Of a stretch of DNA of 46,683 nucleotides, positions 12,884 through 35,519 are shown piece by piece (the stretch's first letter is position 1; each line of letters starts with the position of its first letter). The stretch is taken from the NCBI GenBank assembly GCA_018649625.1, contig JABIHN010000081.1:1-46683 (forward strand), written 5' to 3'. Under the pieces are notes generated by a model. That model ran no database searches and was not told the DNA's origin. It was given only the letters and a program-made list of their open reading frames with translations. Position numbers and translations under genes: made by a program. This stretch comes from Fidelibacterota bacterium. Lineage in GTDB: Bacteria > Fidelibacterota > Marinisomatia > Marinisomatales > UBA1611.

Positions 12884-15229
12884 TCAGTTACGTAAAGGTT
12901 TCCCTTTTTTAAGCATAAAACTGATTCTATCTTGAGAAAGCTTTTCTCCTGCTAGAGATACAAATGCTTCTCGCTCAATATCTAGGATATATTGTTCGTC
13001 CACCGTTTTTGTGAGGCCTGCTTTGTCTCCACCGGTCAATACGAAAGCAAGCTTTTCACCAATCTTCAAATCATGCTCAGATATTTTCCCCTGCATTTTG
13101 AACCCTTTTAGAGCCATTGACAGTGCAGTGCGCCCACCGGAACCTGGGAGCTTTAAATCATCTCGATAAGTTGGTGGTTCATATCCATTGGCCATCTCGA
13201 CCGCTTTTTCTTTTGCCGTTTGGATTAAATAATCTTTATTTAGAACTATAGTATCGTCTTTTTTGAGATAGCCAAGATGCTTTGCTTCATCTGCGCTAGT
13301 TGCCACTTTTGCAAACCCAACGACTTCAAAAGCTTTTTGTATTTTTTGAAATGCACCCATACGTCCTGTTCCGCCATCCATAGCATTCAAGATCATTCGT
13401 AGATTTCCACCACCACCAGGAATGAGCCCAACGCCCACTTCCACTAGTCCCATGTATGTTTCTGCAGCGACTACACGATGAGCAGCCGGTTGAATAATTT
13501 CTACACCACCACCCAGTGCAAGCTGAAATGGTGCCGCTACAACAGGCCCTTTGGAGAATCGAATTCTCTGAGTCGTGTCCTGAAGAACTTTAATTGCCAT
13601 GATTAATTCATCCCACATTTGGTTTTTACATAAATCCAAAATGAGATTCAAATTTGCTCCGGCGCAGAAATTTGCACCTTGATGACCTAAAACCATTCCT
13701 TTATAATCGCCCTTTTCAATGAGGTCCAAAGCGGTATTTATCATTTCAATATATGAGCCATCGATTGGATTGAGCGTTGGCTGTAAAATAGAATGAAATT
13801 CAACATTTAAAATTCCATCTCCCAGATCATTAATACTGGCGCTCAAATCACGTTTAAGCGTTTTTACACCCGTTTTATGAATAGCAAGATTCAATATTTT
13901 TGGGTTTGATTTTATTACGACGGGCTGTTTCTGAATCGGGCACCAATAGTTTCTTTCACCTTTTTCAATGATATAAAATGATTCTCGACCAGATTCTAAC
14001 ATTTCCAAAATCCAAGATGGTACTTTTTTACCTTCAGATTTCATTCGGTTTACTGATTTTTGAACACCAATAGCATCCCAAGATTCAAATGGACCCATTT
14101 CCCAACCAAACCCCCATTTCATGCCATTATCAATATTAACAATATCGTCAGAAATTTCAGGAATTCGATTTGCGCTATAAATAAGAGTCCGAGCTGTGAT
14201 TTCCCAAAAATATTTACTTCCACGGTCATCCCCATAACAAAGTGCTTTAAGTTTATCAGGAAGTTTTTGATGACCTTTTGCGATTCGGAAGCAATCAAAT
14301 CTGACCTTTTCTTGAGGCGAATATTCACCCGTTTTTAAATCCAACGAAAAAATGGTTTTATCTTCATTTTTTTTATAAAAACCAGCTTTTGTTTTTTGTC
14401 CTAATCGCCCAGAATCAACGAGTTGATCTAAAATATCAGGAATTTTAAACATATCCCGCTCTTCGTCATTTAATACTTTTTCATAGGTTGTTTTTGACAC
14501 ATGTCTCATTGTGTCTAATCCAACAACGTCAGAAGTTCGAAAGGTAGCACTTTTGGGTCGACCAGAAATTGGACCCGTTAATTTATCAACTTCTTCAATT
14601 GTAAATCCTTGTTCAATTGCAAGATTCATGGTAACCATCATTCCAAATACCCCAATCCTGTTTCCAATAAAATTTGGTGTATCTTTTGCATGAACAATCC
14701 CTTTCCCCAGTACTGATTCACCAAATTCAACCATTGTATTATAGGTATCATCGGATGTCTGTTCTCCACGAACTAATTCCAACAGTTGCATATATCTTGG
14801 TGGGTTGAAGAAGTGAGTAATCATAAATCGTTGTTTCAAATCGTCAGGAAGAGTTGCAGTCAAATCAGCTAATGGAATTCCTGAAGTATTGGAGGTAAGA
14901 ATAGCAGTATTCTTTAAGTGGGGAAGAAGGTTATTATAAACTTGTTCTTTAATATCTAATCGTTCCACAACGGCTTCCAAAATCCAATCTACTTCAGTGA
15001 TTTTTTCAATATCATCATCATAGGTGCAAGGCGTGACTAATGCAGCATTTTTGGGTTTATAAAGTGGAGCGGGTTTTAAAGATGTAAGTGAGTCCACTCC
15101 TTTTTTTGCCAATTCATCATTAATATCAAATAGGTAGGATGGAATCCCTGCATTTGCAAGGTGACCTGCAATTTGTGCACCCATCACACCAGCGCCTAAG
15201 ACAGCAACTTTTTCAATTTTTGTAGACAT
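12884..15229 (-). CDS. fadN: 3-hydroxyacyl-CoA dehydrogenase/enoyl-CoA hydratase, FadN type
   Basis: The 781-residue bifunctional enzyme has the dehydrogenase first and the hydratase last, as in Bacillus FadN and opposite to E. coli FadB. The NAD fold begins AVLGAGVMGAQIAGHLANAGI. The dehydrogenase His is in MITHFFNPPRYMQLLE (about residue 138), and the helical half continues to about 400. The crotonase part near residues 490-640 has NFCAGANLNLI, ALGGGVEIIQPAAHRVVAAE and VEVGVGLIPGGGGNLR, including the two Glu residues. It performs the hydration and oxidation steps of beta-oxidation. The start is preceded by TAAGGAAAATC and follows the thiolase stop by 8 bp. It is the last gene of the operon and ends at a strong bidirectional terminator. 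Length and order match FadN closely. Confidence 0.93.
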   Translation of the reverse strand: MSTKIEKVAVLGAGVMGAQIAGHLANAGIPSYLFDINDELAKKGVDSLTSLKPAPLYKPKNAALVTPCTYDDDIEKITEVDWILEAVVERLDIKEQVYNNLLPHLKNTAILTSNTSGIPLADLTATLPDDLKQRFMITHFFNPPRYMQLLELVRGEQTSDDTYNTMVEFGESVLGKGIVHAKDTPNFIGNRIGVFGMMVTMNLAIEQGFTIEEVDKLTGPISGRPKSATFRTSDVVGLDTMRHVSKTTYEKVLNDEERDMFKIPDILDQLVDSGRLGQKTKAGFYKKNEDKTIFSLDLKTGEYSPQEKVRFDCFRIAKGHQKLPDKLKALCYGDDRGSKYFWEITARTLIYSANRIPEISDDIVNIDNGMKWGFGWEMGPFESWDAIGVQKSVNRMKSEGKKVPSWILEMLESGRESFYIIEKGERNYWCPIQKQPVVIKSNPKILNLAIHKTGVKTLKRDLSASINDLGDGILNVEFHSILQPTLNPIDGSYIEMINTALDLIEKGDYKGMVLGHQGANFCAGANLNLILDLCKNQMWDELIMAIKVLQDTTQRIRFSKGPVVAAPFQLALGGGVEIIQPAAHRVVAAETYMGLVEVGVGLIPGGGGNLRMILNAMDGGTGRMGAFQKIQKAFEVVGFAKVATSADEAKHLGYLKKDDTIVLNKDYLIQTAKEKAVEMANGYEPPTYRDDLKLPGSGGRTALSMALKGFKMQGKISEHDLKIGEKLAFVLTGGDKAGLTKTVDEQYILDIEREAFVSLAGEKLSQDRISFMLKKGKPLRN

Positions 15230-15237
15230 GATTTTCC

Positions 15238-16365
15238 TTATCGTTCAATTATGGTTGCGATACCTTGTCCGGATCCGATACACATTGTGGCGAGTCCGGT
15301 TTTGGCATCTTGTTGTTCCATCACATTTAACAAGGTTGTAATAATTCGTGCCCCAGAACAACCCAGTGGATGACCTAAAGCAATCGCACCGCCATTTAGA
15401 TTCACTTTTGATTTATCCCAACCGCCTTGTTCAATCACATAAAGAGATTGGGCAGAGAAAGCTTCATTGAGTTCAATCACATCAATATCATCCAGGGATA
15501 ATCCAGTTTTCTTTAATACTTTGTTTGTGGCTGGAATTGGACCCATGCCCATTCTTTTCCAGTCCACACCAGCAACAGATCTACCTTTTATTGTGGCACG
15601 GATCTTAAGTCCATTTGCCTCCGCAAATTCACGACTAGTAATCAATACAGCAGAAGCACCAATGGAAATTGGGCTTGATGTTGCGGGAGTTATAGTTCCA
15701 TTTTCAATAAAAGCAGGATTCAAACTTTGGATCTTTTCCAGATTTGGTTCTCTCGGACCTTCGTCTTTTTCTACCGTGACTTCACCATAAACATCGATGG
15801 GAATTATTTCATTATCAAAACGACCATTATTCCAGGCATCTAAGGCTTTATTGTGGGATTCCACTGCAAACATTTCTTGTGTATCTCTGGAAATATTTCC
15901 TTCTTCAGCCAAAGTTTCTGCTGTTTCTCCCATACCTATATAATATTCTTGCTCGGCCAATTCAGGGTGAAAATCAGGATTAAAACCGCCCATGGGGACA
16001 GAAAACATATCCTCTACTCCTGCAGCAATTCCGATTTCAATATCTCCCGATTCAATTTTTGTACTGATTTGATGAACCGCATCCATGGAAGAACCACAAA
16101 ATCGGTTTACCACTGATCCACCGGTTGTTTCTGGAATACCAGCGAGTATAGCCACACCTTTCGCCATGAGCATTCCTTGAGGCCCTTCGGGAAAGGCACA
16201 ACCCAAAACGAGATCTTCGATTTTGTCGGGTGAAATATTTTCGTTTCGTGCCAACAATCCTTTTACCACTTGGGCGGTGAGATCGTCTGCGCGGATTCCA
16301 ACAAGATTCCCATTTTTTACGCCGATGGGCGAACGAACGGCATCAATAATAACAGATTCAGACAT
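15238..16365 (-). CDS. fadA: Acetyl-CoA acyltransferase (3-ketoacyl-CoA thiolase)
   Basis: The 375-residue thiolase carries all three active-site blocks: nucleophile Cys90 in VNRFCGSSMDA, His332 in GHPLGCSG and the second Cys362 in MCIGSGQG. It cleaves 3-ketoacyl-CoA to acetyl-CoA and a shortened acyl-CoA, the last step of beta-oxidation, and should work with the FadN-type enzyme encoded 8 bp downstream. The ribosome site AAGGAG before the ATG overlaps the stop codon of the 44-residue gene upstream (TAAGGAG), so its translation is probably coupled to that gene. The FadA versus biosynthetic-thiolase decision rests on context (acyl-CoA dehydrogenase, FadN), which clearly favours degradation. 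Confidence 0.93.
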   Translation of the reverse strand: MSESVIIDAVRSPIGVKNGNLVGIRADDLTAQVVKGLLARNENISPDKIEDLVLGCAFPEGPQGMLMAKGVAILAGIPETTGGSVVNRFCGSSMDAVHQISTKIESGDIEIGIAAGVEDMFSVPMGGFNPDFHPELAEQEYYIGMGETAETLAEEGNISRDTQEMFAVESHNKALDAWNNGRFDNEIIPIDVYGEVTVEKDEGPREPNLEKIQSLNPAFIENGTITPATSSPISIGASAVLITSREFAEANGLKIRATIKGRSVAGVDWKRMGMGPIPATNKVLKKTGLSLDDIDVIELNEAFSAQSLYVIEQGGWDKSKVNLNGGAIALGHPLGCSGARIITTLLNVMEQQDAKTGLATMCIGSGQGIATIIER

Positions 16366-16374
16366 ATTTTCTCC

Positions 16375-16509
16375 TTATGAACGGTTTTCGCGGTGATATA
16401 AAAATTCATTCAAATCAAAATCGTTTAAATGAATAAATGACAATTTTCGTCCCTGTCTTTTTTGTTTGCTTAAATATGGTACGATTTTTTTCAGTGAGGC
16501 TTTTTTCAT
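16375..16509 (-). CDS. Small basic protein (44 aa) inside the beta-oxidation operon
   Basis: This short frame fills the gap between the acyl-CoA dehydrogenase and thiolase genes. It has an ATG at 16509 preceded by AAAAGGAAAATAATT, an excellent ribosome site, and its TAA stop forms part of the thiolase ribosome site (TAAGGAG). The N-terminal half is strongly basic (KKASLKKIV, SKQKRQGRK). The second half is acidic then mixed (IHLNDFDLNEFLYHRENRS). There is no signal peptide, membrane helix or Cys. I do not recognise a family. The fit of start, stop and spacing to both neighbours argues that it is translated. It could be a regulatory peptide, a small subunit that bridges the enzymes, or a lineage-specific protein of unknown role. 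Confidence 0.6.
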   Translation of the reverse strand: MKKASLKKIVPYLSKQKRQGRKLSFIHLNDFDLNEFLYHRENRS

Positions 16510-16522
16510 AATTATTTTCCTT

Positions 16523-18313
16523 TTAGAATGGGTAGTTATTTTTGGTGTACATAAAGTCAGCCAAAGATTGTTTAAGAGAAATTGTATCAGTGTTTAAAGT
16601 CATAATTGATTCCAATGATTGAACAAATTGTGCAGTTTCATTAGGGATATTTTCTTCAAATATTTTATTTAAACAGATATTGGATAAGGACTTGATTTTC
16701 AGAAGTGATTCAGCAGTGAAAATCCGAGTAATTACAGAGCTCATATCGGATATTTCATGATTTGATTGTGATTGTCTTGCTCGAGAGATGACAGAGCCAG
16801 CAGTGTAAATTAAAGTAAAAATATCTGCCAATGCTTCGCTCAGCTGTTGTTGATGTTTTAAATCCTGCCCATATTCACAAAGTGCTTCCTGGAATACAAG
16901 AGATGCAAGCAATTTTGCTGAATCTAACCCGTGAATTTCACGGCCATAGTTTTCTTTTGAAAGAGTTAATATATCTACAGATAAAAAATTGTCCATTTCT
17001 TTTAAAAAATCTCGAAGTGAAATTTCTTCCATCAGAACTTTTTTCATCATATATCCAGTAACAATAGCACGATTTATCTCATTCGTCCCTTCCCAAATTT
17101 GATTAATTCTATCATCACGATATGCCCGAGCCATAGGATATTCTTCAGTAAAACCATATCCACCATGAATTTGAAGAGCTTCATCTACAATAAGATCGGA
17201 TGTTTCACTCCCAAAAACTTTTGCCATAGAAGCTTCAACGGCAAATTTTTCATGTGCTTCACCCATTTTCATATAAAAAGCGGGATCAGATTTATCCAAT
17301 TCATTAATAGAATCCTGGATGAGTCCAACCGTTCTATACAGCATTGAATCTCCAGCATATACGCGAACAGTCATATCTGCAACTTTGCCTTTTATAGAAT
17401 CAAAATACGCGATGGGTTGTCCAAATTGTCGACGATTCAATGCATAATTAATGGCATGTTCAATTCCTAATTTCGATCCACCAATACAAGAAGCTGCTAA
17501 TTTATATCTTCCGATATTTAAAATATTAAAAGCAATGGTAGCACCTTTTCCTACTTTATAGAGTAGGTTTTCAACAGGTACTTTTGCATTGGTAAATTTC
17601 AAAGAAGTTGTGGAAGAACCTTTCATTCCCATCTTTTTTTCTTCAGCACCAACTTCAAATCCTTCTGTATCTCGCTCTACAATAAATCCTGAAAATTTAT
17701 TTCCATCGACTTGAGCCAGAACAGTAAATACACCTGCCCAACTTCCATTACTGATAAATTGTTTTTCTCCATTCATAATATAATGTTTACCATCATCTGA
17801 TAAAACTGCCGTGGTTTTACCTGATAAAGCATCTGAACCTGCAGAAGGTTCTGTTAATGCGTAAGCAGCAACAGTTTCTCCAGTCATAATTGTTGGTAAA
17901 TATTTTTGTTTTTGTTCGGGGGTACCAAAAAAAGTGATTCCCATACTTCCAATTCCAGCTTGAACTGAAAATGTGCATCCAAAAGAGGGTGATCCGCCAC
18001 GAGCCATGGATTCGGCCACGATACAAGATGTGATTTTATCTAAATCAGTTCCACCATATTCTTCGGGTGAATCGACGCCGATGAGTCCCAGTTCGCCCAT
18101 TTCTCTGAGAAGAGATAAACTTAATTTTTTATCAAGTTTATCTATTGCTTCAGCATTTGGTAGGATGCGATCTCGTGCAAATTCCTTAACCATTGTATCA
18201 ATATCTTGATGGTCTTCTGAAAAGGTTTCGCGGCAAAAAATGGTTGTATTTTCAACAGGTGAAACAAGCCATTGGCCACCTTGAAGTTGGGACGATTTGT
18301 TAGTTTCAGTCAT
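16523..18313 (-). CDS. fadE: Acyl-CoA dehydrogenase (FadE-like, extended C-terminus)
   Basis: The 596-residue flavoenzyme oxidises acyl-CoA to trans-2-enoyl-CoA. The ACAD core occupies about residues 25-430: LGLIGVDSPEEYGGTDLD, YALTEPSAGSD for FAD and substrate binding, RRQFGQPIAYFDSIKGKVADM, and QIHGGYGFTEEYPMARAYRD. The catalytic Glu is near residue 408 in QIWEGTNEINR. About 160 further residues form a helical extension, as in Bacillus FadE (594 residues) and the very-long-chain enzymes, so long-chain substrates are likely. It starts 8 bp after the TetR gene and precedes the 44-residue gene. Gene order FadE, FadA, FadN mirrors the parts of the Bacillus fadNAE operon, in reverse order. Confidence 0.93.
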   Translation of the reverse strand: MTETNKSSQLQGGQWLVSPVENTTIFCRETFSEDHQDIDTMVKEFARDRILPNAEAIDKLDKKLSLSLLREMGELGLIGVDSPEEYGGTDLDKITSCIVAESMARGGSPSFGCTFSVQAGIGSMGITFFGTPEQKQKYLPTIMTGETVAAYALTEPSAGSDALSGKTTAVLSDDGKHYIMNGEKQFISNGSWAGVFTVLAQVDGNKFSGFIVERDTEGFEVGAEEKKMGMKGSSTTSLKFTNAKVPVENLLYKVGKGATIAFNILNIGRYKLAASCIGGSKLGIEHAINYALNRRQFGQPIAYFDSIKGKVADMTVRVYAGDSMLYRTVGLIQDSINELDKSDPAFYMKMGEAHEKFAVEASMAKVFGSETSDLIVDEALQIHGGYGFTEEYPMARAYRDDRINQIWEGTNEINRAIVTGYMMKKVLMEEISLRDFLKEMDNFLSVDILTLSKENYGREIHGLDSAKLLASLVFQEALCEYGQDLKHQQQLSEALADIFTLIYTAGSVISRARQSQSNHEISDMSSVITRIFTAESLLKIKSLSNICLNKIFEENIPNETAQFVQSLESIMTLNTDTISLKQSLADFMYTKNNYPF

Positions 18314-18321
18314 AATGTATC

Positions 18322-18915
18322 TTAATCCTTTTTTACACCGGATAAAATAAATTCAGATATTGTTGAGATATATTCATGAGCTTCAACCCCTGATTTCTCA
18401 AATAGCGTGAACCAATTTATACCTTCAATGTTAATTAAAATTGAGAGAGCTGTGATTTGCGGATTTACATTTTTAAATTCGCCAGAATCAACTCCTTTTT
18501 GGATAATTCGAACTATGTATTCTAAAAATTCGGAATAGACATTTTGTAATTTTTTATTAAAGTCAGAATCACGACCGCTTAAAGACCAAAATTCGACTAG
18601 TATTTTAAAAGCATTAGGATCTTTTTCAAACTGATCCATAAAAAAATCAAACAGTCCTTTCAATTGTTCTGATGCAGTCGAATGTTGTTCAACATTGTCT
18701 ATAAATCCCGCATTGTAGTTTTTGACCCAATGATCAACTAATGACAAGTAAACTTCCTTTTTAGATTTATAATAATGATAAATCGCACCTTTAGAAAGTT
18801 GGGATGAAAGGACGATATCATCCATGCGACTTCTTTCATATCCATTTTTTACAATGACGGATAATGCCGCATCTAAAATCTGTTCTTTTCGTTTATCTTG
18901 TTTATTTTGGTTCAT
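18322..18915 (-). CDS. TetR/AcrR-family transcriptional regulator, first gene of the fad operon
   Basis: The 197-residue repressor-type protein has the TetR helix-turn-helix at about residues 8-55 (QILDAALSVIVKNGYERS, DDIVLSSQLSKGAIYHYYKSKKEVY). A helical ligand domain follows with no clear motif. By position it is the local fatty-acid regulator and functional counterpart of Bacillus FadR, which releases DNA on binding long-chain acyl-CoA; ligand identity is inference. A 16-bp palindrome lies 6 bp upstream of the start codon, immediately after a predicted -10 box, which is what autorepression would need. A single promoter there could drive the regulator and all four genes behind it. No strong ribosome site is visible before the ATG, because the palindrome occupies that space. 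Confidence 0.88.
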   Translation of the reverse strand: MNQNKQDKRKEQILDAALSVIVKNGYERSRMDDIVLSSQLSKGAIYHYYKSKKEVYLSLVDHWVKNYNAGFIDNVEQHSTASEQLKGLFDFFMDQFEKDPNAFKILVEFWSLSGRDSDFNKKLQNVYSEFLEYIVRIIQKGVDSGEFKNVNPQITALSILINIEGINWFTLFEKSGVEAHEYISTISEFILSGVKKD

Positions 18916-19050: not shown

Positions 19051-19109
19051 CTAATGCGAATAGGTCTCAATAACAATAAAATTGTGATTTAATTAAAAGG
19101 CGAATTGAC

Positions 19110-19473
19110 ATGAAAAAGATAAATATAAAAAATGGACCTGTTAAAATTTTCCAGTGCTCAACGCGTCACCGGATACATTTTGAATACAAGTCAACATTTA
19201 TTGAGATGGAATATTATGATTTTTTGGAAATTCGCTAAATTGATTAATGGAAAAAATCATTTTTCTCAAAAGGGGAATATCACAATACCTTTAGTAAAAA
19301 ACCAAATTTATCTAAATATAGAAAATCAACATGTTCATCTATTGCAATCTGTTATATCGAAAGTAGTATTGTTACTTCAGGATGAATATTTAATGTTTCA
19401 AGGTCTTTTATCACTAGATCAATATTCTTCAGATGCGATAAAAATGATGAGTTACCCAAGAGAATTAAATTAA
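19110..19473 (+). CDS. Small conserved-type protein with an apparent frameshift
   Basis: A frame starts at ATG 19110 with AAAAGG nine bases upstream and reads KIFQCSTRHRIHFEYKS then EMEYYDFLEIR before a stop at 19236. The +1 frame then continues (KFAKLINGKNHFSQKGN, TIPLVKNQIYLNIENQ) to a stop at 19473, whose last base is the first base of the next gene's ATG. A run of six T at 19220-19225 lies where the frames must join. With five T the two parts give one 120-residue protein. The C-terminal half resembles, from memory, DUF6686-type small proteins of Bacteroidota. It may be a sequencing or assembly indel, a recent mutation or a slippery site. Translational coupling to the next gene supports the downstream frame. 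Confidence 0.5.
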
Positions 19474-20354
19474 TGAAAAAAACGCCATTTATAGGAATCT
19501 TAGCTTTTTTAGTTGTTTTATTTACAATGCCAATTGGCCATATGGTAATGATTCTCATAGAATCTATATTCGGACATCAATATCAATACCCTGCTGCGAC
19601 ATTTCTTGGCTTGATAGGGGCCATATTTCTCCTAATAGGTGCAAGAAACAATAACGAAACAACGGGAACTTGGCTGGGTTTTTTTGCGGGAATATTTATT
19701 TGGACAGGTTGGGTAGAATTTTCCTTCGTCTATTTTGCAAACCATTTAAGTATTCCACCTTTAATGGAAAATGGAGAAGTGGCAACAAAACCAGAATATC
19801 TCATGATGCCATCATCTATAGGAATATTTTTAGCTACAGTACTTTATTTTTTCTTCAATAAAGATACAAGGTGTCACTTTTTCAGATGGTTTCATCGTCA
19901 TTTGAAATTAAAAGTTGGAAAACCATCTTCAGTTAGAAATCGAACTATTTCTTCAATAACAGCTATGGAAACAATTTATATAACTTGGTTTTTTTATATT
20001 GTATTATTACTTGTATATGATGAAGCATTATTTGGGCAATATCCTCTAATAACATATGCTACCTTTTTTATTTCTTTAGCATGGTCATTATATTTATTCA
20101 TTCGGTTAATAAAATTTAAAAAAATGGCACCTGCCGTCAGATATGCAATTCCTACTGTCATCATATTTTGGAATGCAGTAGAAATTTTAGGTCGGTGGAA
20201 TTTCTTTAATGAAATATGGGTACAACCTCAGGACTTTGTAATTGAAATGATTCTAATTGTTTTAGCTTTTATGTTTGTAGGAGCATTGTCTTTTTTTATA
20301 CCTAAAAAGGTAGATGAAATAAATATTATTAAAAAAAGTGTAACAATTCCTTAA
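19473..20354 (+). CDS. Eight-helix membrane protein with internal duplication, unknown function
   Basis: The 293-residue protein has about eight predicted membrane helices (near residues 5-30, 41-56, 66-90, 113-128, 166-188, 193-212, 223-241 and 254-276). It has no signature I can name. The two halves look duplicated at an offset of 154-155 residues. E30-S-I-F-G matches E184-A-L-F-G, A42-T-F matches A196-T-F, and W77...V81-E82 matches W233...V236-E237. Paired intramembrane Glu and Trp residues and His23 could bind a cofactor or ion. It overlaps the preceding gene by one base and is followed by an Rrf2 regulator and a DUF438 protein, so a role in NO, oxygen or redox response is possible. It is not NnrS (too short) or a haem-copper oxidase (no His set). 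Confidence 0.65.
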   Translation: MKKTPFIGILAFLVVLFTMPIGHMVMILIESIFGHQYQYPAATFLGLIGAIFLLIGARNNNETTGTWLGFFAGIFIWTGWVEFSFVYFANHLSIPPLMENGEVATKPEYLMMPSSIGIFLATVLYFFFNKDTRCHFFRWFHRHLKLKVGKPSSVRNRTISSITAMETIYITWFFYIVLLLVYDEALFGQYPLITYATFFISLAWSLYLFIRLIKFKKMAPAVRYAIPTVIIFWNAVEILGRWNFFNEIWVQPQDFVIEMILIVLAFMFVGALSFFIPKKVDEINIIKKSVTIP

Positions 20355-20391
20355 AAATAGCATCTAAATATCTTAAATAAGGAAATTAAAA

Positions 20392-20793
20392 ATGAGTTTT
20401 ACTAAGCAAGTTCAATACGCAATACAGATGTTAATACACATTGAAAACTCAACAGGTCATTTATTAACTGTTAAAGAAATCGCTGATAAAAGAGATTTAC
20501 CTCATAACTTTTTACAAAAGATAGCTCAAAATTTAACAAGAAATAATATTATTGAATCAAAACGAGGGCGTAATGGTGGCGTTAAACTGAAAAAGCCAAG
20601 TGATGAAATAACTGTTAAAGAAATAATTAGAGTGGTTGATGGCCCATCTGGACATGATTGTATTATTGGTGAATATTCATGCACGCCAGAAAATTTATGT
20701 CATGTTTGCAGTCATTATAATTCGCATTTTGCAGAATTATATTTTAATACTACGCTAAAAAATTTGATGACTAAAGAACATTGTTGTAAATAA
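20392..20793 (+). CDS. Rrf2-family transcriptional regulator with Fe-S-type cysteines (NsrR-like)
   Basis: The 133-residue regulator has the Rrf2 winged helix (QVQYAIQMLIHIENS, LTVKEIADKRDLPHNFLQKI, SKRGRNGGVKLKKP). A cysteine cluster follows: Cys90, Cys97, Cys103 and Cys106 in DCIIGEYSCTPENLCHVC, and two further Cys at the C-terminus (EHCCK). NsrR, IscR and RirA use three Cys of similar spacing to bind a 2Fe-2S or 4Fe-4S cluster that senses NO or iron status. The neighbouring DUF438 and DUF1858/DUF2249 genes belong, in other bacteria, to NO and denitrification regulons. I therefore favour an NO or redox sensor. The start has AAGGAAATTAAAA upstream. Target promoters are not known; its own cluster is the obvious candidate. 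Confidence 0.85.
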   Translation: MSFTKQVQYAIQMLIHIENSTGHLLTVKEIADKRDLPHNFLQKIAQNLTRNNIIESKRGRNGGVKLKKPSDEITVKEIIRVVDGPSGHDCIIGEYSCTPENLCHVCSHYNSHFAELYFNTTLKNLMTKEHCCK

Positions 20794-20827
20794 ATATAAT
20801 TATTGGATTACGATAAAGGAATAAAAA

Positions 20828-22069
20828 ATGAGTGAACTTATAAACAATAGACAAAAACGTATCGAAATCATGAAAACTTTGGTTCGCCAATTGCATGATG
20901 GAAGTGCGCCAGAAAAAATTAAAAGCCAATTGGAAACCATGTTGGTTGAAGCAGATTATTCTGATGTATTTCGGATGGAAATTCAATTAATTGAAGAAGG
21001 GATTCCGCAAGAGAGTATTCAGGACCTTTGTGATACCCATACTCATGTTTTAAGGAAACAACTGGATTTACAAGAAACACCAGAAACAGTACCAGGACAT
21101 CCTGTTCATACTTTTATCCAGGAAAATGCTGCATTAACCGAAAGAACCGGTTTAGTGAAACTCCTTATGGCTGAGATTGATGCGATGGATGATAAGGAAG
21201 ATGCATTATCAAAAATGAGAAAAATTCAACTCAATCTTAATGAGCTTATGGATACTGATAAACATTATCGACGAAAAGAAAATCTTGTTTTCCCGTTCTT
21301 TGAAAAGAAGGATGTGCCAGGTGTTCCAGCTGTTATGTGGGGAAAGGATGATGAAGTTCGGAAATTATTGAAGGAAACAATCTCTGGTTTACAAGGGATT
21401 GATTCCATTAAAAGCGCAGAAGCAAAAGCATACAATCTATTTACAGTATTGCCAGCTGTAGAAGCCGTGGATGAAATGATTTATAAAGAAGAAAAAGTTT
21501 TCCTTCCCACAGCCTTAGACTTGTTGTCACAAGTAGAGTGGTATGAAATATATACTCAAACGGAAGAAATTGGATATTGTCTTTATGTCCCAGAATTTGA
21601 ATGGATGCCTGAAGGAATTGCAGTCGATGAATTGAAAGCACCTAAAGTAAATGGAAAAATTCAATTACCAACTGGATCCTTTAAACTCGAAGAAATGATT
21701 GCAATGTTCAAAATACTTCCCTTTGATATTACGTTTGTTGATAAAGATGATAATGTAAGATTTTTCAGTGATAGTCCAGATAGAATATTTGATCGAACGC
21801 GTGCTATTTTGGGACGAAAAGTTCAGTATTGTCATCCACCATCAAGCGTAAATATTGTGAACCAAATATTAGATGATTTTAAATCAGGAAAAGAAGATCA
21901 AGCACGATTCTGGATTAATATGGGGCCAAAACTTATTTATATTGTTTATTATGCGATGAGAGATGATTTGGATGAATATATGGGCACATTAGAAGTCACC
22001 GAAGATTTGACGGATAAAAAAAATATTGAAGGTGAAAGACGAATATTAACTTATGATCAAAAAGGTTAG
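20828..22069 (+). CDS. DUF438 protein with hemerythrin-like and PAS domains
   Basis: The 413-residue cytoplasmic protein has three parts. Residues about 1-80 are the DUF438 helical domain (KTLVRQLHDGSAPEKIKSQL ending DTHTHVLRKQL). Residues about 90-240 are hemerythrin-like, with His/Glu pairs GHPVHTFIQENAAL, HYRRKENLVFPFFEK and YKEEKVFLPTALDLL that can bind a di-iron centre. Residues about 290-405 form a PAS domain (LPFDITFVDKDDNVRFFSDS, RAILGRKVQYCHPPSSVN) that is C-terminal, with no kinase or cyclase output. Such proteins are linked to NO or oxygen sensing and repair in anaerobes. It follows the Rrf2 gene by 34 bp and precedes the DUF1858 gene by 8 bp. The domain reading is secure; the ligand is inference. 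Confidence 0.85.
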   Translation: MSELINNRQKRIEIMKTLVRQLHDGSAPEKIKSQLETMLVEADYSDVFRMEIQLIEEGIPQESIQDLCDTHTHVLRKQLDLQETPETVPGHPVHTFIQENAALTERTGLVKLLMAEIDAMDDKEDALSKMRKIQLNLNELMDTDKHYRRKENLVFPFFEKKDVPGVPAVMWGKDDEVRKLLKETISGLQGIDSIKSAEAKAYNLFTVLPAVEAVDEMIYKEEKVFLPTALDLLSQVEWYEIYTQTEEIGYCLYVPEFEWMPEGIAVDELKAPKVNGKIQLPTGSFKLEEMIAMFKILPFDITFVDKDDNVRFFSDSPDRIFDRTRAILGRKVQYCHPPSSVNIVNQILDDFKSGKEDQARFWINMGPKLIYIVYYAMRDDLDEYMGTLEVTEDLTDKKNIEGERRILTYDQKG

Positions 22070-22077
22070 GATAAAAA

Positions 22078-22587
22078 ATGGAAATTAAACCCAAAACAAA
22101 ATTATTAGATTTATTAAATCAATACCCAGAATTGGAACCCAAGGTAATTTCAATGGCTCCACCATTCAAGAATTTGAAAAACCCGGTTTTAAGAAAAACA
22201 GTTGGAAAATTAGCAACCTTAGATAAAGTCGCTAAAATTGGTGGGGTAGATCTTAATGTTTTTATAAATGAACTTCGCCTAGGAATTGGACTAGAAGTTA
22301 TTCAACATGTAATAGATGAAGTTTCGATTAGCTTGCCAGATGAAGCACCAATTTGGATTAAGGGGAAGCCGAAACAAATTATTGATGGGACTGCGATGTT
22401 GGAAGCTGGAGGTCATCCATTGAAATATATAAACAAGTTAATGAATGAAATTCAATCTGGGGAGTTTGTACTATTAAAGACTAATTTTCCACCCTTACCT
22501 ATGCACGATGCAATGAGTAAGCAAAATTATTTAGTGTATTATAATGTTGAAGGTGACCAGCATCAATCGTTCTTCGGAAAACAATAG
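22078..22587 (+). CDS. DUF1858/DUF2249 domain protein
   Basis: The 169-residue cytoplasmic protein starts with a DUF1858 module (KTKLLDLLNQYPELEPKVI, APPFKNLKNPVLRKTVGKLA, AKIGGVDLNVFINEL; about residues 1-65). A DUF2249-like module ends it (about 100-165: GGHPLKYINKLMNEIQSGEF, NFPPLPMHDAMSKQNY). DUF1858 proteins commonly accompany DUF438 hemerythrins, and DUF2249 proteins accompany denitrification genes, but neither has an established biochemical role. It lies 8 bp after the DUF438 gene, so both are surely made from one transcript and may form a complex. Confidence 0.8.
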   Translation: MEIKPKTKLLDLLNQYPELEPKVISMAPPFKNLKNPVLRKTVGKLATLDKVAKIGGVDLNVFINELRLGIGLEVIQHVIDEVSISLPDEAPIWIKGKPKQIIDGTAMLEAGGHPLKYINKLMNEIQSGEFVLLKTNFPPLPMHDAMSKQNYLVYYNVEGDQHQSFFGKQ

Positions 22588-22613
22588 TTTCTATTTGGAT
22601 AAAAAATTATTCT

Positions 22614-24182
22614 ATGTTTAAATCAATAAACAAGAGACATCATAAAAGCCGTCTTTTTCAAATATCTAAATGGATTCATAAATATATTGGATTGGCGCTT
22701 GTATTCTTCTTGATTTGGATGAGCATTTCGGGAATATTATTAAATCATCCTAAAGCCATTAGTTCATTTTCAGTTCCAACTTGGGCTGTTCCATCCCATT
22801 ATATACCAAAAAATTGGAATCGCAGTGCACTAACTCATGTTGTTTATTCTAAAGTTGACTCCAATCTTGTTTTTGCATCGGGTAAAACAGGTGTATGGAA
22901 GTCAGTAAATAAGGGATATTCCTTTGAACCGTTTATGGGTGGACAATATCCAAAATCTGAATTCTACCGAAAAACAAACCATCTCTATTTACAAGAAGAT
23001 GAAGGTGAATCATGGCTTTTTGCGGGGAATGATTATGGGTTGTTTAAAACCCATTTAGATAAATCAAATTGGAAAAATATCTCTTTAGAGTCGTCCCCGA
23101 CCAAAATTGTGAAATTCATTGAAAAAGGGAATACTTTATTAGTTCTGAGTGAAACAGATATATATTCCATTGATTTATCCAAAAATGACATTCACCTGAA
23201 GAAAATGAATATTCGCCAATCGGGTATTTCTGAAGAAATGCCTATGATTGATTTCTTTTTTGATCTTCATAGCGGGAAACTTTTTGGATTTGGTGGACAA
23301 CTTTTATTTGATTTAGCAGGGGTAGTCCTATTTTATTTAAGCTTTACAGCATTATATACTTGGCTGTACCCAAAAAAACGCCGTAAAGATAAGAAAATGG
23401 GTCGAGCTAAAGCGAATCCTATCGGTCGGCGAATATTCCAATTTCTCTTAAAATATCATTTATCACTTGGAATTTGGTTTGCATTATTTTTAATTATTTT
23501 TGGCGTAACGGGCTTTTTCATGCGTCCACCTTTTTTGGCAACCTTGGTAGATAAGGAAATTAATTTACCATCTGTTATCAATCATAGACTAGATGAATCC
23601 TGGACAGGTGATATACAAAATGGAATGTTTTTAGCGAAAACAGACACGCTTGTTCTATCCACATCAGAAGGATTATGGAAAGGGAAAATAGAAGCGAATG
23701 GACTCTTTTCTAAATTCAATAAAGATTGGCCAATTTTTGTTATGGGCGCAACCGTATTGGAGGTGATTGATTCTTCCAAAATATTGGTAGGGTCATTTTC
23801 GGGAATATTTAATATTTCAAATAATGTTATTGACCGAATGACTGGGGATACAGTCAATTCGTTTAATACCATCCGCCCAGGCGATTATATGGTTACAGGA
23901 TATGTGAAATCTCCTGAGAATGAATCATTTATATTTACGCATGAACAAGGTGTACTTCCATTACCAGGCGTTGAATTAAAAAATCGATTTCAGCAACCAC
24001 AATTTGTTGGAGATGAATATAGAATGCCACTATGGAATTATGTTTTTGAAATTCATAATGGTCGTTTTTTTAAAGGAATATTGGGTGAGTGGTATATTTT
24101 ATTACTTCCTTTGGGATCGTTATTATTAGTTTTTATAACAATGTCGGGTGTTATAGATTGGTTATATCACCGTAAAAAATAA
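22614..24182 (+). CDS. PepSY-TM-type membrane protein with propeller-like repeats
   Basis: The 522-residue protein has four membrane helices (about 22-43, 227-250, 283-302 and 494-515) and two large periplasmic loops. The helix bordering sequences resemble PepSY-associated TM proteins: WIHKYIGLALVFFLIWMSIS with ILLNHP, YHLSLGIWFALFLIIFG, and a basic KKRRKDKK loop. Instead of recognisable PepSY domains, the loops carry repeats of the form hydrophobic-x-G/S-x-G-[WF]-K: NLVFASGKTGVWKS (84-97), SWLFAGNDYGLFKT (133-146), TLVLSTSEGLWKG (about 345-357) and ILVGSFSGIF (390-399). His22, His45, His219 and His282 near membrane faces could bind haem or metal. It is the last gene of the + strand cluster. 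It may be a flavin or haem reductase-like partner; the function is not known. Confidence 0.68.
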   Translation: MFKSINKRHHKSRLFQISKWIHKYIGLALVFFLIWMSISGILLNHPKAISSFSVPTWAVPSHYIPKNWNRSALTHVVYSKVDSNLVFASGKTGVWKSVNKGYSFEPFMGGQYPKSEFYRKTNHLYLQEDEGESWLFAGNDYGLFKTHLDKSNWKNISLESSPTKIVKFIEKGNTLLVLSETDIYSIDLSKNDIHLKKMNIRQSGISEEMPMIDFFFDLHSGKLFGFGGQLLFDLAGVVLFYLSFTALYTWLYPKKRRKDKKMGRAKANPIGRRIFQFLLKYHLSLGIWFALFLIIFGVTGFFMRPPFLATLVDKEINLPSVINHRLDESWTGDIQNGMFLAKTDTLVLSTSEGLWKGKIEANGLFSKFNKDWPIFVMGATVLEVIDSSKILVGSFSGIFNISNNVIDRMTGDTVNSFNTIRPGDYMVTGYVKSPENESFIFTHEQGVLPLPGVELKNRFQQPQFVGDEYRMPLWNYVFEIHNGRFFKGILGEWYILLLPLGSLLLVFITMSGVIDWLYHRKK

Positions 24183-29972: not shown

Positions 29973-31061
29973 ATGTCAGATAAAAAATTACTAAACTATG
30001 CAGATTATTTAAATCTGGAAAACATTTTAAACAGTCAAAAATTAAAAAGTGCTGAGCAAGGAAAACCTGCTCATGAAGAAATGCTTTTTATTGTTATTCA
30101 CCAAGTCTATGAACTTTGGTTCAAACAAATTCTGCATGAATTGGATTCAATTCTAAATACATTTAATCAAAACTCTATTGAAGAGTCTGACGTAAGTCTT
30201 GCTGTTTTAAGATTAGATAGAATAATTGAAATTCAAAAAATTCTGATTGATCAAATTCGCGTGTTAGAAACTATGACTGCTATGGATTTTTTAGAATTTC
30301 GTGATTACTTATTTCCATCATCTGGATTTCAAAGCGCACAATTCAGGATTCTTGAAAATAAATTGGGTTTAACGCCAGATCATAGAATCAAATATGGAAA
30401 TCAGGATTATAAAAACCCATTATTGGAAGCGGGTAGGAAAGTTGTAAAAAAAGCAGAAGATGAAAAATCATTATTTGATTTATTAGAAACATGGTTAGAA
30501 CGAACACCATTTTTAAAATTTGAAGGATTTGATTTTTGGGATCAATACAGTTCATCAGTACGAGAAATGTTAGAAAAAGAAGTTGAAGCCATTCGTAATA
30601 ATCCAAATCATTCTACAGAACAAATCGCATATCATTTAAAAGAGCATGAAATGGCAACTGCATCTTTTGAAGCAATGATTGATGTTAATAAACATAATGA
30701 ATTAATTGAAAAAAATAAAAAAAGATTATCTCATAAGGCAACCCAAGCAGCATTATTGATTTTTCTTTATCGAGATGAACCTATTTTACATTCACCTTAT
30801 AACTTATTAACTCGACTTATGAATATGGATGAATTATTTACAACTTGGCGTCAACGACATGCTATTATGGTCAGAAGAATGATTGGTGCTAAAATTGGGA
30901 CTGGTGGTTCATCCGGACATGCATATTTACAAAAAACGGCTGACCGGCATAAAATATTTTCGGAATTAGCAGACCTTTCTACATTTTTCATTCCAAGATC
31001 TACTTTACCAAAATTACCCGGAAAAATTAAAAAAAATTTAGGATACCATTTTAAATCATGA
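29973..31061 (+). CDS. kynA: Tryptophan 2,3-dioxygenase
   Basis: The 362-residue haem enzyme opens the indole ring of L-tryptophan to give N-formylkynurenine, the first step of the pathway encoded here. HEEMLFIVIHQVYELWFKQ holds the substrate-side His and family signature. RHAIMVRRMIGAKIGTGGSS carries the proximal haem His and the substrate-binding GTGGSSG loop. It is longer than the ~280-residue proteobacterial forms and closer in length to animal and Bacteroidota versions. Its stop overlaps the SDR gene by 4 bp (ATGA). No strong ribosome site is visible before the ATG. No tryptophan-sensing site was recognised upstream. The identification is secure. Confidence 0.95.
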   Translation: MSDKKLLNYADYLNLENILNSQKLKSAEQGKPAHEEMLFIVIHQVYELWFKQILHELDSILNTFNQNSIEESDVSLAVLRLDRIIEIQKILIDQIRVLETMTAMDFLEFRDYLFPSSGFQSAQFRILENKLGLTPDHRIKYGNQDYKNPLLEAGRKVVKKAEDEKSLFDLLETWLERTPFLKFEGFDFWDQYSSSVREMLEKEVEAIRNNPNHSTEQIAYHLKEHEMATASFEAMIDVNKHNELIEKNKKRLSHKATQAALLIFLYRDEPILHSPYNLLTRLMNMDELFTTWRQRHAIMVRRMIGAKIGTGGSSGHAYLQKTADRHKIFSELADLSTFFIPRSTLPKLPGKIKKNLGYHFKS

Positions 31062-31846
31062 ATCTTTCTTTGCACAAAAAAAACGCTATCATTTGCGGTT
31101 CCACAGACGGAATTGGAAAAGAGACCGCTTTGCTTATGGCAAAACGGGGTGCGTCCATAACATTGATAGCACGAAATCAAAAAAAATTGGACCAAACATT
31201 ATCAGAACTTTCAACTGCAGATGGGCAAGAGCATTTTTCATTGTGTGCAGATTTTGATAATCCTGAAAAGTTAAAAGAAAAAATTACAGGGCATATGAAA
31301 CTGATTGTAGGTCAATCAGATATTTTGGTCAATAATTCAGGTGGACCGAAGGGCGGACCGCTTCTTGACGCAGAAGAAGAAGAATTTCGTGTTGCATTTG
31401 ATCGACTTGTTATTTGTAATCAAATTATGGTAAAAGCTGTTGTTCCGGGTATGAAAAAAATAGGTGAAGGGCGAATTATAAATATTATTTCAACATCGGT
31501 TCGACAAGTGATTCCTGGATTAGGCGTATCCAATACGATTCGCGGTGCAGTCGCGCAATGGGCAAAAACCCTAGCATTAGAATTAGGCCAATTTAATATT
31601 ACTGTCAATAATGTTCTTCCAGGATATACAAATACTGCAAGGCTCCAATTTCTTGCGGAATCTAAAGCGAAATTGATGGGAGTTACACCCGAAGTGATTA
31701 ATGAAGTTTGGAAAAACAATACATCTTTAAGACGACTTGGCGAACCGGAAGAAACCGCTTCTGCCGTTGCTTTTTTAGCTAGTGATGCAGCCAGCTATAT
31801 AAATGGTCACGATATCCCCGTAGATGGCGGACGATTTGGTGCTTGA
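31058..31846 (+). CDS. Atypical SDR-family oxidoreductase in the kynurenine operon
   Basis: The 262-residue Rossmann protein has the SDR cofactor loop in the form CGSTDGIGKETALLMAKRG, the NNSGG strand and the C-terminal NGHDIPVDGGRFG. The catalytic Tyr-x-x-x-Lys is absent: at that place it reads SNTIRGAVAQWAKTLALEL, so Asn and Arg replace Tyr and Lys, as in a known divergent SDR group with SNxxR. NAD(P)H binding is likely; the reaction is unclear. It is translationally coupled to the dioxygenase (4-bp overlap) and to nadC (1-bp overlap), so it should act on a kynurenine-pathway compound. A 2-aminomuconate or 2-oxo intermediate reductase is a guess. It does not resemble any formamidase. Confidence 0.83.
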   Translation: MNLSLHKKNAIICGSTDGIGKETALLMAKRGASITLIARNQKKLDQTLSELSTADGQEHFSLCADFDNPEKLKEKITGHMKLIVGQSDILVNNSGGPKGGPLLDAEEEEFRVAFDRLVICNQIMVKAVVPGMKKIGEGRIINIISTSVRQVIPGLGVSNTIRGAVAQWAKTLALELGQFNITVNNVLPGYTNTARLQFLAESKAKLMGVTPEVINEVWKNNTSLRRLGEPEETASAVAFLASDAASYINGHDIPVDGGRFGA

Positions 31847-32718
31847 TGCAAAAACGAATTGAATATGAGCAAGTAACATTTCTTGATCCTAATTGGATTC
31901 GTGAACAAATTTCTCATTTTATGGAAGAAGATGTTCCAGAAGGTGATATTACAACAAATGCAACTGTAACTGAAACTGTATCTGTAGTTGCCAAAATGGT
32001 TTCTGCAGATAGTTTTGTATTTTGTGGAGAATATATTATTCCATTATGTTTTCCAAATCCATGTCAAATTGATTTAAAAATTAAAGATGGCGATTGGGTT
32101 CAATCTGGAAAAACTATTGCAAATATTATGGGTCCAGCAGGGCTCATACTTACTTATGAGCGCATTGCATTGAATTTAATTCAAAGATTATGTGGTATAA
32201 GTACAGAGACTGAAAAATATTGCAATTTAGACTTGCCTGAAAATTTCAAAGTGATGGATACACGAAAAATGACACCAGGGCTCAGAAAATTTGAAAAATA
32301 TGCAGTGTCTATTGGTGGCGGTTGGAATCATCGACTGAATCTTTCATCTGGGATTTTAATTAAGGATAACCATCTTAAAGCGGCTGGAAGTATAAAAAAT
32401 GCTGTAAATAAATCCCGGCAGAAAAATAAAAACAATTTTCCCATCGAATTAGAAGTAGATACATTGGAACAACTTCAAGAAGGTTTAGCAATGGGTGTAG
32501 ATGGTTTTCTATTGGATAATATGAGCCCTGAAATGGTGAAAGAAGCTGTCGGAATTATCAGGAATGTGCCAGGTGGAGAGTCGATATTTGTTGAAGCCAG
32601 TGGGAATATTCATTATGATACATTGGAGTCTTATGCCTGGACGGGAATCGATGGCGTTTCTATGAGTGCGATTACGGCGCAAGCAAAAGTAGTTGACATT
32701 AAGTTGGAATTTGAATAA
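31846..32718 (+). CDS. nadC: Nicotinate-nucleotide pyrophosphorylase (quinolinate phosphoribosyltransferase)
   Basis: The 290-residue enzyme converts quinolinate and PRPP to nicotinate mononucleotide, the entry into NAD. The signature is present: DTRKMTPGLRKFEKYAV, IGGGWNHRLNLSSG, IKDNHLKAAG, ELEVDTLEQ and LLDNMSPE. I start it at ATG 31846, which overlaps the SDR stop as TGATG; a TTG at 31843 adds only one residue. Its presence beside 3-hydroxyanthranilate dioxygenase, whose product cyclises to quinolinate, implies NAD synthesis from tryptophan, as in eukaryotes and some bacteria. The usual aspartate-route partners (nadA, nadB) are not in this window. Its stop overlaps the aldehyde dehydrogenase start (TAATG). 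Confidence 0.93.
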   Translation: MQKRIEYEQVTFLDPNWIREQISHFMEEDVPEGDITTNATVTETVSVVAKMVSADSFVFCGEYIIPLCFPNPCQIDLKIKDGDWVQSGKTIANIMGPAGLILTYERIALNLIQRLCGISTETEKYCNLDLPENFKVMDTRKMTPGLRKFEKYAVSIGGGWNHRLNLSSGILIKDNHLKAAGSIKNAVNKSRQKNKNNFPIELEVDTLEQLQEGLAMGVDGFLLDNMSPEMVKEAVGIIRNVPGGESIFVEASGNIHYDTLESYAWTGIDGVSMSAITAQAKVVDIKLEFE

Positions 32719-34160
32719 TGGAAAAACTCACTAATTTTATAAATGGGAAATTTGTTTCACCAAGGTCTAATCAATATTTGGATGTTTACGAGCCGGCAAC
32801 AGGACAAGTTTATGCACAACTTGCTGATTCAAATTCTGACGATATAAATAATGCCGTTGAATCAGCTCAAAATGCTTTCGAGAATTGGTCCGGATTATCT
32901 GTTAAAGAAAGGGCAGTCTATTTAAATAAAATCTCAGATGGACTCAAAGCTCGATTGGATGAATTTTCTGAGTTTGAATCTAGAGATACTGGAAAACCAA
33001 TTTCCTTGGCAAAGTCCGTCGATATTCCACGAGCGATTTCAAATTTTCAATTTTTCGCAGATTATGGTAGCTCTTTTCAATTTGAATCCAATTTAAATAA
33101 CGAAACAGCCCAAAATAAAATTATTCGTTCACCCTTGGGAGTAGTTGGATGTATTTCTCCGTGGAATCTTCCATTATATTTATTTACATGGAAGATTGCT
33201 CCAGCATTAATTGCTGGGAATACGGTTGTTGCAAAACCATCAGAAATCACACCTTTGACAGCTTGTAGGTTGGGCGAAATTTGTCAAAATGTAGGATTAC
33301 CAAATGGCGTACTAAACATTGTTCATGGGCAAGGGAATATTTCCGGTGATGCTTTGGTAAGTCATGAAAAGATAAAAGCAATTTCATTTACCGGCGGAAC
33401 AACCACGGGGAAAGTGATTGCTGAAAAAACCGCATCATCTTTTAAAAAACTGTCTTTAGAAATGGGTGGGAAAAATCCTGCTATTATTTTTGCCGATTGC
33501 GATTATAAAAAAATGTTGAATACTTTGGTTAGATCTTCGTTTTCAAATCAAGGTCAAATTTGTTTGTGCAGCTCCAGAATATTAGTTGAAAAATCTATTT
33601 ATGATAAATTTAAAAGAGATTTTGTTCAACGCGTTTCAGAATTGAAAGTGGGCGATCCATTAAATGAAGGAACTCAATTCGGGGCGTTAACTTCTCAAGG
33701 TCATTTTGATAAAGTATTAGATTTTATTGAAATCGCAAAACAAGAAGGTGGAAATGTTCTGACTGGTGGTAATTCTAAAAAAAATAATGGAAGATGTGAA
33801 ACTGGATGGTTTGTTGAACCAACAATTATTGAAGGATTAAAAAACTCATGCAGAACGAATCAAGAAGAAATATTTGGCCCCGTCGTCACTCTGCAATATT
33901 TTGAATCTGAAAAAAAAGCAATCCAACTTGCGAATGAAACAGAATATGGTCTATCGGCCACCATTTGGACTGAAAATAAAGAAAAAGCAACGCGAGTTTC
34001 TTCTCAAGTTGATGTGGGTGTAATTTGGGTAAATTGCTGGCTCGTACGAGATTTGCGAACACCTTTTGGTGGGATGAAACAATCGGGTTTGGGTAGAGAA
34101 GGCGGAGAAGATGCACTACGATTTTTTACTGAACCAAAAAATATCTGTACAATAAGATGA
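32718..34160 (+). CDS. 2-aminomuconic 6-semialdehyde dehydrogenase
   Basis: The 480-residue ALDH-superfamily enzyme has NAD-binding FTGGTTTGKVIAEKT, catalytic Glu in LSLEMGGKNPAII and nucleophile Cys in NQGQICLCSSRI. PWNLPLYLFTWKIAPALIAGN matches aminomuconate-semialdehyde and hydroxymuconate-semialdehyde dehydrogenases, where the Asn helps stabilise the muconate. Placed next to the ACMS decarboxylase and deaminase, it should oxidise 2-aminomuconate semialdehyde to 2-aminomuconate (NbaE role, ALDH8A1 in animals). Its start overlaps nadC by one base and its stop overlaps the ferredoxin gene by 4 bp. A betaine-aldehyde-type substrate is possible on homology alone, but the context is strong. Confidence 0.9.
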   Translation: MEKLTNFINGKFVSPRSNQYLDVYEPATGQVYAQLADSNSDDINNAVESAQNAFENWSGLSVKERAVYLNKISDGLKARLDEFSEFESRDTGKPISLAKSVDIPRAISNFQFFADYGSSFQFESNLNNETAQNKIIRSPLGVVGCISPWNLPLYLFTWKIAPALIAGNTVVAKPSEITPLTACRLGEICQNVGLPNGVLNIVHGQGNISGDALVSHEKIKAISFTGGTTTGKVIAEKTASSFKKLSLEMGGKNPAIIFADCDYKKMLNTLVRSSFSNQGQICLCSSRILVEKSIYDKFKRDFVQRVSELKVGDPLNEGTQFGALTSQGHFDKVLDFIEIAKQEGGNVLTGGNSKKNNGRCETGWFVEPTIIEGLKNSCRTNQEEIFGPVVTLQYFESEKKAIQLANETEYGLSATIWTENKEKATRVSSQVDVGVIWVNCWLVRDLRTPFGGMKQSGLGREGGEDALRFFTEPKNICTIR

Positions 34161-34516
34161 CATCAAAATACAATAAACATATTTTCATTTGCGTGAATGA
34201 AAGAGATCAAAATAGTTCGAAAGATGATTGTGCTAGGTGTGGCGGAAAAGATGTTCGCTTAAAATTTGTTCAGCTCATTAATCAGAATGGGTTAAAAGGG
34301 AAAGTCCGCGCCAATAAAAGTGGATGTTTGGATGCCTGTGAGTTGGGCACAGCTGTGGTAATTTATCCTGATAATATATGGTACACGAGAGTGACTATAA
34401 ATGATGTGGATGAAATATTTGAAACATCTATTCTTAATGATAATGTGGTGGAAAGATTATCAGCGAATGAGCATACTTGGAAAGAAATGAAAGAGAATAG
34501 GAAAGCAAATAAATGA
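34157..34516 (+). CDS. Thioredoxin-like 2Fe-2S ferredoxin
   Basis: The 119-residue protein is a thioredoxin-fold ferredoxin of the Aquifex/Clostridium type. Its start KHIFICVNERDQN and NKSGCLDACELGTAVVIYPD are conserved blocks. Cys12, Cys25, Cys57 and Cys61 can bind a 2Fe-2S cluster; Cys28 is an extra Cys close to the second ligand. VTINDVDEIFE ends the fold and a charged tail follows. It overlaps the preceding and following genes by 4 bp each, so it is made with the kynurenine enzymes. No standard kynurenine step needs a ferredoxin; it might supply or repair iron in 3-hydroxyanthranilate dioxygenase or reduce a flavoenzyme. That role is inference. Confidence 0.85.
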   Translation: MTSKYNKHIFICVNERDQNSSKDDCARCGGKDVRLKFVQLINQNGLKGKVRANKSGCLDACELGTAVVIYPDNIWYTRVTINDVDEIFETSILNDNVVERLSANEHTWKEMKENRKANK

Positions 34517-34929: not shown

Positions 34930-34938
34930 GAGAATAAT

Positions 34939-35454: not shown

Positions 35455-35519
35455 ATGTATTTAAGTAGTCAAAGTGATTATGTCTAGAATACATTAACTG
35501 GTAAATATTAAAAAAATAA

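Follow-up and report, generated by a model that had tools for sequence, protein, structure and literature searches.

The question raised by this locus is what system is encoded by six consecutive genes at positions 19110-24182 of a 46.7-kb stretch of DNA (the window), which is part of a Neomarinimicrobiota draft genome, G000 (2.39 Mb, 93% complete; coverage of the genome was by query searches and by a small number of stretches). The initial annotation had read the genes as a module responding to nitric oxide (NO) or redox state. We favor another reading, to which we give roughly three chances in four: that the operon is a Fur-controlled module for the acquisition of iron or heme that includes periplasmic reduction. 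Iron or heme under Fur is preferred to NO because the control element in front of the operon and the neighborhoods of its second gene, TM8, in other genomes point there. Comparison of the sequences directly supports the gene block and its order, the conservation of the Fur-type element, and the iron and heme neighborhoods of TM8 and of the hemerythrin-PAS protein in several families.

The genes encode, in order, a small DUF6686-like protein (ORF1), a membrane protein outside known families (TM8), an Rrf2-family regulator, a DUF438-hemerythrin-PAS_10 protein, a DUF1858 protein, and a PepSY_TM protein. As first described, they form an uninterrupted run with short gaps (0-37 nucleotides [nt]; in order 0, 37, 34, 8, and 26 nt), all on the plus strand, except that the first gene is not intact. 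The block is more than a chance assembly, because the same six genes recur in the same order in two metagenome-assembled genomes (MAGs), BS150m-G42 (G015, L010) and SI039_bin89 (G024, L012), which belong to the family of the window genome and to a different genus. Protein identities to window genes 2 through 6 were 85, 75, 88, 69, and 71% for the former and 78, 53, 85, 65, and 68% for the latter. The complete set was found in these three genomes of one family. G005 (L011) has kept just ORF1 and TM8, and within the window's own genus the four remaining genomes have neither TM8 nor DUF438; the premise of conservation in relatives was therefore sound for the three genomes and failed for those four. 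In a survey of 245 genomes of the phylum, TM8 was present in 17 and DUF438 in 21. The two occurred together in 6 genomes, which is more than expected by chance (hypergeometric P 0.0013), but three of these share one inherited operon. The full set is narrow in distribution, and its parts recombine elsewhere.

Comparison of the regions upstream of the operon and its relatives revealed a common palindrome, A(A/T)TG(A/C)GA-N5-T(A/C)TCA(A/T)T, with the geometry of a Fur box. The window copy, AATGCGAATAGGTCTCAAT (core TGCGAAT-A-GGTCTCA; 19053-19071, plus strand), lies 38 nt 5' of the start codon with which the operon begins and was recognized by a position weight matrix (PWM), by pattern search, and by its equivalent position in relatives. 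The palindrome was defined mainly on the upstream regions of families f1 and f8 with knowledge of the sites in L049 and L086, and these are not independent of it. The PWM was built from 13 sites, all of them in other families. With this matrix, 19053-19071 ranked first in the window with a score of 20.2; the second site scored 15.3, and the maximum over 60 Markov-simulated windows was 18.8. Perfect matches to the pattern occur twice in the 2.39 Mb of G000, once at the window site; when one mismatch was allowed, there were 39 matches compared with 15 for a reversed control pattern. The second perfect match (C38:5145-5163, L151) precedes a gene that is cut by the end of its contig. A scan for sigma-70 promoters and terminators gave site numbers no higher than in shuffled sequences.

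The same box precedes TM8 or DUF438 operons in several more families. A perfect copy lies near the start of the TM8 operon in 10 of the 17 TM8 genomes (families f1, f8, f13, and f16), a copy with one mismatch in G033 and G241, and a copy with two in G044 and G240; one upstream region is cut by a contig end. The box also precedes DUF438-DUF1858 operons that do not include TM8 (G127, G182). We assign it to Fur from the company it keeps, because it is present at the start of fur-feoA-feoB-TM8 operons (L090, L091), in front of flavodoxin and of TonB-HmuY genes (L157), in front of a gene run that begins with an HmuY-domain gene and continues with TonB receptor and ATP-binding cassette transporter genes (L156), and, as the core TGAGACTCATTCTCA, approximately 20 nt 5' of fur in the fur-feoAB operon of G000 itself. 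The operon thus shares its upstream box with fur-feoAB, flavodoxin, and heme-uptake genes. G000 encodes a Fur (C95:93322-93669) and, distinct from it, a PerR-like protein, and Fur is predicted to bind at 19053-19071.

The genes found beside TM8 and DUF438 elsewhere fit this assignment. The order in family f13 (L089-L092) is fur-feoA-feoB-TM8; in more detail, feoB is followed by genes for a small Cys-bearing protein, TM8, a protein rich in His, and a TonB receptor (L091, L092). A TonB receptor lies beside TM8 in G033, G124, G151, G044, and G055. The gene run in G033 (L048) is TM8-TetR-TonB receptor-HmuY-DUF438-DUF1858, in which the lipoprotein encoded next to the receptor, ahead of DUF438, was identified as HmuY with 32.1 bits (cut-off 27). 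Other combinations are ORF1-Rrf2-TM8-TetR-TonB (G124, L085), Rrf2-TM8 (G147, L084), TM8-DUF438-DUF1858 (G035, L060), and Rrf2-DUF438-DUF1858-cupin (L056, L058). Phylum-wide co-occurrence of HmuY and TM8 was not beyond chance (P 0.30), and the link between them is one of local gene order. Outside the phylum, an operon in the Bacteroidota genome Prolixibacteraceae JC049 (L018) has a DUF2249-hemerythrin-PAS-DUF1858 fusion flanked by a CobN/HmuS-like gene (998 bits) on one side and by ExbB-like and DUF2149 genes on the other, with TM8 convergent to it; HmuS is a heme de-chelatase (PMC12583661).

TM8 (19473-20354, plus strand; 293 amino acids [aa]) has about eight transmembrane (TM) helices according to both hydropathy and an AlphaFold2 (AF2) model with a mean confidence (pLDDT) of 73. 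It matched nothing in Pfam, in NCBIfam, or in a sequence search of the PDB, and a Foldseek search of the PDB with the pLDDT 73 model gave no fold match (best E 0.74, template-modeling scores ~0.3 or less). Homology to Feo proteins appeared in no search made. An alignment of twelve homologues from two phyla showed that H23, E30, E82, E166, E237, R241, and E258 are invariant; these residues fall within predicted helices or adjacent to them. Helix 1 has a break at M19-P20. The broken helix and buried acids would suit a path for metal or protons. We regard TM8 as an undescribed inner-membrane protein, possibly a permease or the partner of a reductase.

The second membrane protein, PepSY_TM (PiuB/FoxB-like; 22614-24182, plus strand), scored 81.9 bits against a Pfam cut-off of 28.8, and thus has the domain of HiuABC/XusABC-type reductase systems. 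PepSY_TM proteins in uptake systems that are Fur-regulated or induced by iron limitation have been assigned as siderophore reductases, namely HiuB (PMC13001220) and XusC (PMC13142918), and the window protein would carry out similar chemistry. It has four predicted TM helices, two beta-rich insertions, and conserved His residues (H22, H45, H62, H219, H282, and others), of which H22, H45, and H282 lie near TM helices. Similarity to FoxB was weak (phmmer E 0.3 to 7abw), and the AF2 model, with pLDDT 49.8, was too poor for a fold search. The description of both membrane proteins as unusual is supported. Only four genomes of the phylum encode a close relative of this PepSY protein. Apart from the operon copies, such relatives are confined to G230, which has two very similar copies on two contigs of equal length (L182 4233-5831, L183 4235-5734), probably strain variants binned together; they adjoin genes for a Crp-type regulator and 4Fe-4S/NrfD/rhodanese-like proteins, perhaps a use of the same PepSY type in sulfur redox chemistry.

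The three proteins encoded between the membrane proteins are putative sensors. The Rrf2 and DUF438 hemerythrin-PAS identities proposed earlier were confirmed by scores above all of the Pfam cut-offs. The Rrf2 protein (20392-20793, plus strand; 89.5 bits, cut-off 30) has the pattern C90-x6-C97-x5-C103 plus a fourth Cys, C106, and is of the Fe-S or redox sensor type. Its cysteines had been called NsrR-like; the cysteines are there, but the likeness to NsrR is not supported, since the NsrR model gave 45.7 of the 182 bits required and the middle Cys, C97, is missing in the operon relative L012. The protein was below the cut-offs of all three equivalog models, NsrR, IscR, and RirA, the nearest being RirA (69.9 of 193 bits). 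The DUF438 protein (20828-22069, plus strand) has DUF438, hemerythrin, and PAS_10 domains, each above its Pfam cut-off, with invariant residues H91, E99, H146, E151, and E221 and a PAS motif C335-H336-P337. Its closest solved structure is 3cax (PF0695; E 3e-96), and a link to YtfE is weak. A second DUF438 subtype, which is not accompanied by DUF1858, occurs in deep-branching families (L051-L054). The next gene (22078-22587, plus strand) had been annotated as DUF1858/DUF2249: DUF1858 was detected with 50.5 bits (cut-off 32.2), whereas Pfam gave no DUF2249 match up to E 1, the C-terminal part only resembling it.

From these components the following mechanism can be proposed. Fur would repress the operon in plentiful iron; when iron is scarce it would leave 19053-19071 and allow expression. 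TonB receptors, whose genes lie at other loci in this genome and next to TM8 in relatives, would admit ferric complexes or heme to the periplasm. Periplasmic iron would then be reduced by the PepSY_TM protein with electrons that it carries across the inner membrane. TM8 would also function here, either conducting iron to the cytosol alongside FeoB or assisting the reductase as its partner. Cytosolic Fe, Fe-S, or O2 status may be sensed by the Rrf2 protein and by the pair of DUF438 hemerythrin-PAS and DUF1858 proteins, which would tune the response. To this extent the sensing and electron-transfer module of the initial annotation, as a co-transcribed unit, remains plausible, given PepSY_TM, hemerythrin-PAS, and the Cys-bearing Rrf2; the NO signal assigned to it is not supported.

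Several known systems resemble parts of the operon. HiuABC of Caulobacter and XusABC of Bacteroides, which we use as working analogues (PMC13001220, PMC13142918), and FoxB of Pseudomonas have in common with it a Fur-type box and a PepSY_TM protein with conserved His residues near the ends of TM helices, and HiuABC has an additional membrane protein beside PepSY (HiuC there, TM8 here). The window operon differs from all three in the absence of a TonB receptor, in a PepSY protein with beta-rich insertions and weak similarity to FoxB, in the approximately eight-helix TM8, which is unlike known families, and in the addition of Rrf2 and hemerythrin-PAS proteins. Because no TonB receptor was found within the operon copies of the window, G015, or G024, we did not file it as a member of HiuABC/XusABC. 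The Hmu system (HmuY-HmuR-HmuSTUV) is approached by the G033 run of TM8, DUF438-DUF1858, TonB receptor, and HmuY and by the hemerythrin-PAS-DUF1858 fusion beside the CobN/HmuS-like gene of JC049. The window operon, however, has no HmuR or HmuS, HmuY had no match in G000, and HmuY, HmuR, and HmuS were not found together, G033 having a partial set. The likeness to feoAB lies in the f13 operons, where TM8 comes after feoB behind the same box, but in G000 the two genes are not neighbors.

These comparisons bear on a gap in the described systems. For Bacteroidota, it was called unknown which protein carries iron to the cytosol once XusC has acted in the periplasm (PMC13142918), and the role of HmuT was called unclear (PMC12583661). 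TM8, which recurs behind Fur boxes, after feoB or before TonB/HmuY, is a concrete candidate for the step of iron entry into the cytosol. A bolder proposal, against which we would still lay odds, is that TM8 founds an undescribed family of inner-membrane iron transporters (or obligate partners of periplasmic iron reductases) in Neomarinimicrobiota and Bacteroidota, that it fills the step of the "unknown inner membrane protein" after PepSY reduction, and that it is paired with a new hemerythrin-PAS/DUF1858 sensor of iron or heme. The open literature that was searched has almost nothing on DUF438 hemerythrin-PAS proteins, which by these associations would be tied to the control of iron and heme. 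No described iron regulon for Neomarinimicrobiota came up in that literature, and a Fur-box matrix is now available for this marine phylum.

A number of results weigh against iron or heme acquisition. The window operon itself includes neither a TonB receptor nor HmuY. Among the 17 TM8 genomes checked, G035 and G214 have no box, nor do the DUF438-DUF1858 pairs of families f12 and f23, and the window site does not stand out when judged by the Fur consensus of E. coli alone, only the phylum-specific element being significant. Most of the Bacteroidota TM8 loci, known from five contigs in all, show no iron gene nearby. The PepSY relatives closest outside the family, those of G230, lie beside their Crp and NrfD/rhodanese genes with no Fur box, and DUF438 of families f26 and f29 adjoins flavodiiron-protein-like and rubrerythrin-like genes (named from sequence starts only). 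Finally, every genome used is a draft.

Three other explanations were considered. The best of them, which we regard as unlikely, is oxygen or redox defense: the DUF438 hemerythrin-PAS protein would sense O2, the operon would protect upon oxygen exposure, and the Fur box would reflect coupling of iron and O2 instead of uptake. In its favor, the deep-branching DUF438 clusters (L051-L054) contain flavodiiron-protein-like, rubrerythrin-like, and Fur-family genes (again named from sequence starts only), and the name of the MAG that holds one of the related operons, BS150m, refers to the Black Sea at a depth of 150 m. Those DUF438 proteins, however, are only ~35% identical and have no DUF1858 partner, and TM8 and PepSY accompany iron genes in relatives.

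The NO response, in which an NsrR-like Rrf2 would sense NO and control hemerythrin-PAS and membrane proteins that detoxify or sense it, is less probable still. Like the NsrR/YtfE system, the operon combines a Cys-bearing Rrf2 with a hemerythrin protein, whose domain is distantly related to YtfE, and DrpB, a DUF1858-DUF2249 protein, acts in the control of nitrate respiration in Thermus (PMC6282519). DrpB is, by analogy, the nearest experimental precedent for the DUF1858 protein, and the nitrogen-oxide idea was thus kept and not dropped entirely. Against it, no NorB-like gene was found in the 93% complete G000, which has a single COX1-family gene (447 bits) beside COX3-like genes; neither NosZ nor Hcp had a match there (Nir and Hmp were not searched for). 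Nor is DUF438 associated with NosZ in the 245 genomes, the two sharing 1 genome where 1.9 would be expected. With these searches negative or showing no association, the score below the NsrR cut-off, and a Fur box and iron neighbors in place of NO enzymes, a link to NO or denitrification was rejected. Fe-S homeostasis, that is, assembly or repair of Fe-S clusters under iron limitation by an IscR/RirA-like Rrf2 instead of uptake, is just as improbable: RirA was the best-scoring equivalog and the hemerythrin domain has a distant likeness to YtfE, but Fe-S assembly genes are in no operon copy, and TM8 comes after feoB and before TonB receptors.

The first gene, ORF1 (19110-19472, plus strand), is frame-broken. 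Two pieces were matched to a model of its relatives: 19110-19283, with stops, corresponds to model positions 1-58, and 19210-19470 to positions 34-121. The first frame stops at 19236-19238 and the remainder runs on in another frame, the change lying between ~19210 and 19238. In four relatives the gene is intact, and its DUF6686-like product is 121-141 aa long and carries a C-x2-C motif, the second Cys of which is lost in the window. We conclude that ORF1 is probably decaying, because, when translated through the break, it is ~30% identical to the L010 copy compared with 69-88% for the other five genes; an assembly error is the alternative. All five genes downstream of it are intact.

Several observations were made on the surroundings. 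TetR, acyl-CoA-dehydrogenase, thiolase, and 3-hydroxyacyl-CoA dehydrogenase genes (window 12884-18915; L084, L085, L059, L184, L185) are syntenic across families f1, f2, and f8. The slot next to the TetR gene in f1 and f8 holds Fur-boxed operons of varying content, an apparent hot spot for iron genes. In further support of the iron reading, the slot is occupied in G135 by a perfect Fur box and porin-FMN_bind-164 aa-ORF1-like-CbiX chelatase-TetR-TonB receptor-lipoprotein, and in G127 by outer membrane protein-247 aa-169 aa-DUF438-DUF1858. CbiX-type chelatase-like proteins with signal-peptide-like starts lie in or near Fur-boxed iron operons (L184 5215-5820, L092 1291-1887) and are possibly a periplasmic heme de-chelatase analogue of HmuS. 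Elsewhere in the window, 29973-39156 holds a near-complete tryptophan-kynurenine cluster with nadC inside; its genes encode tryptophan dioxygenase, a short-chain dehydrogenase/reductase, quinolinate phosphoribosyltransferase, aldehyde dehydrogenase, 3-hydroxyanthranilate dioxygenase, an ACMSD-like amidohydrolase, kynureninase, and a flavin adenine dinucleotide (FAD) protein like kynurenine monooxygenase.

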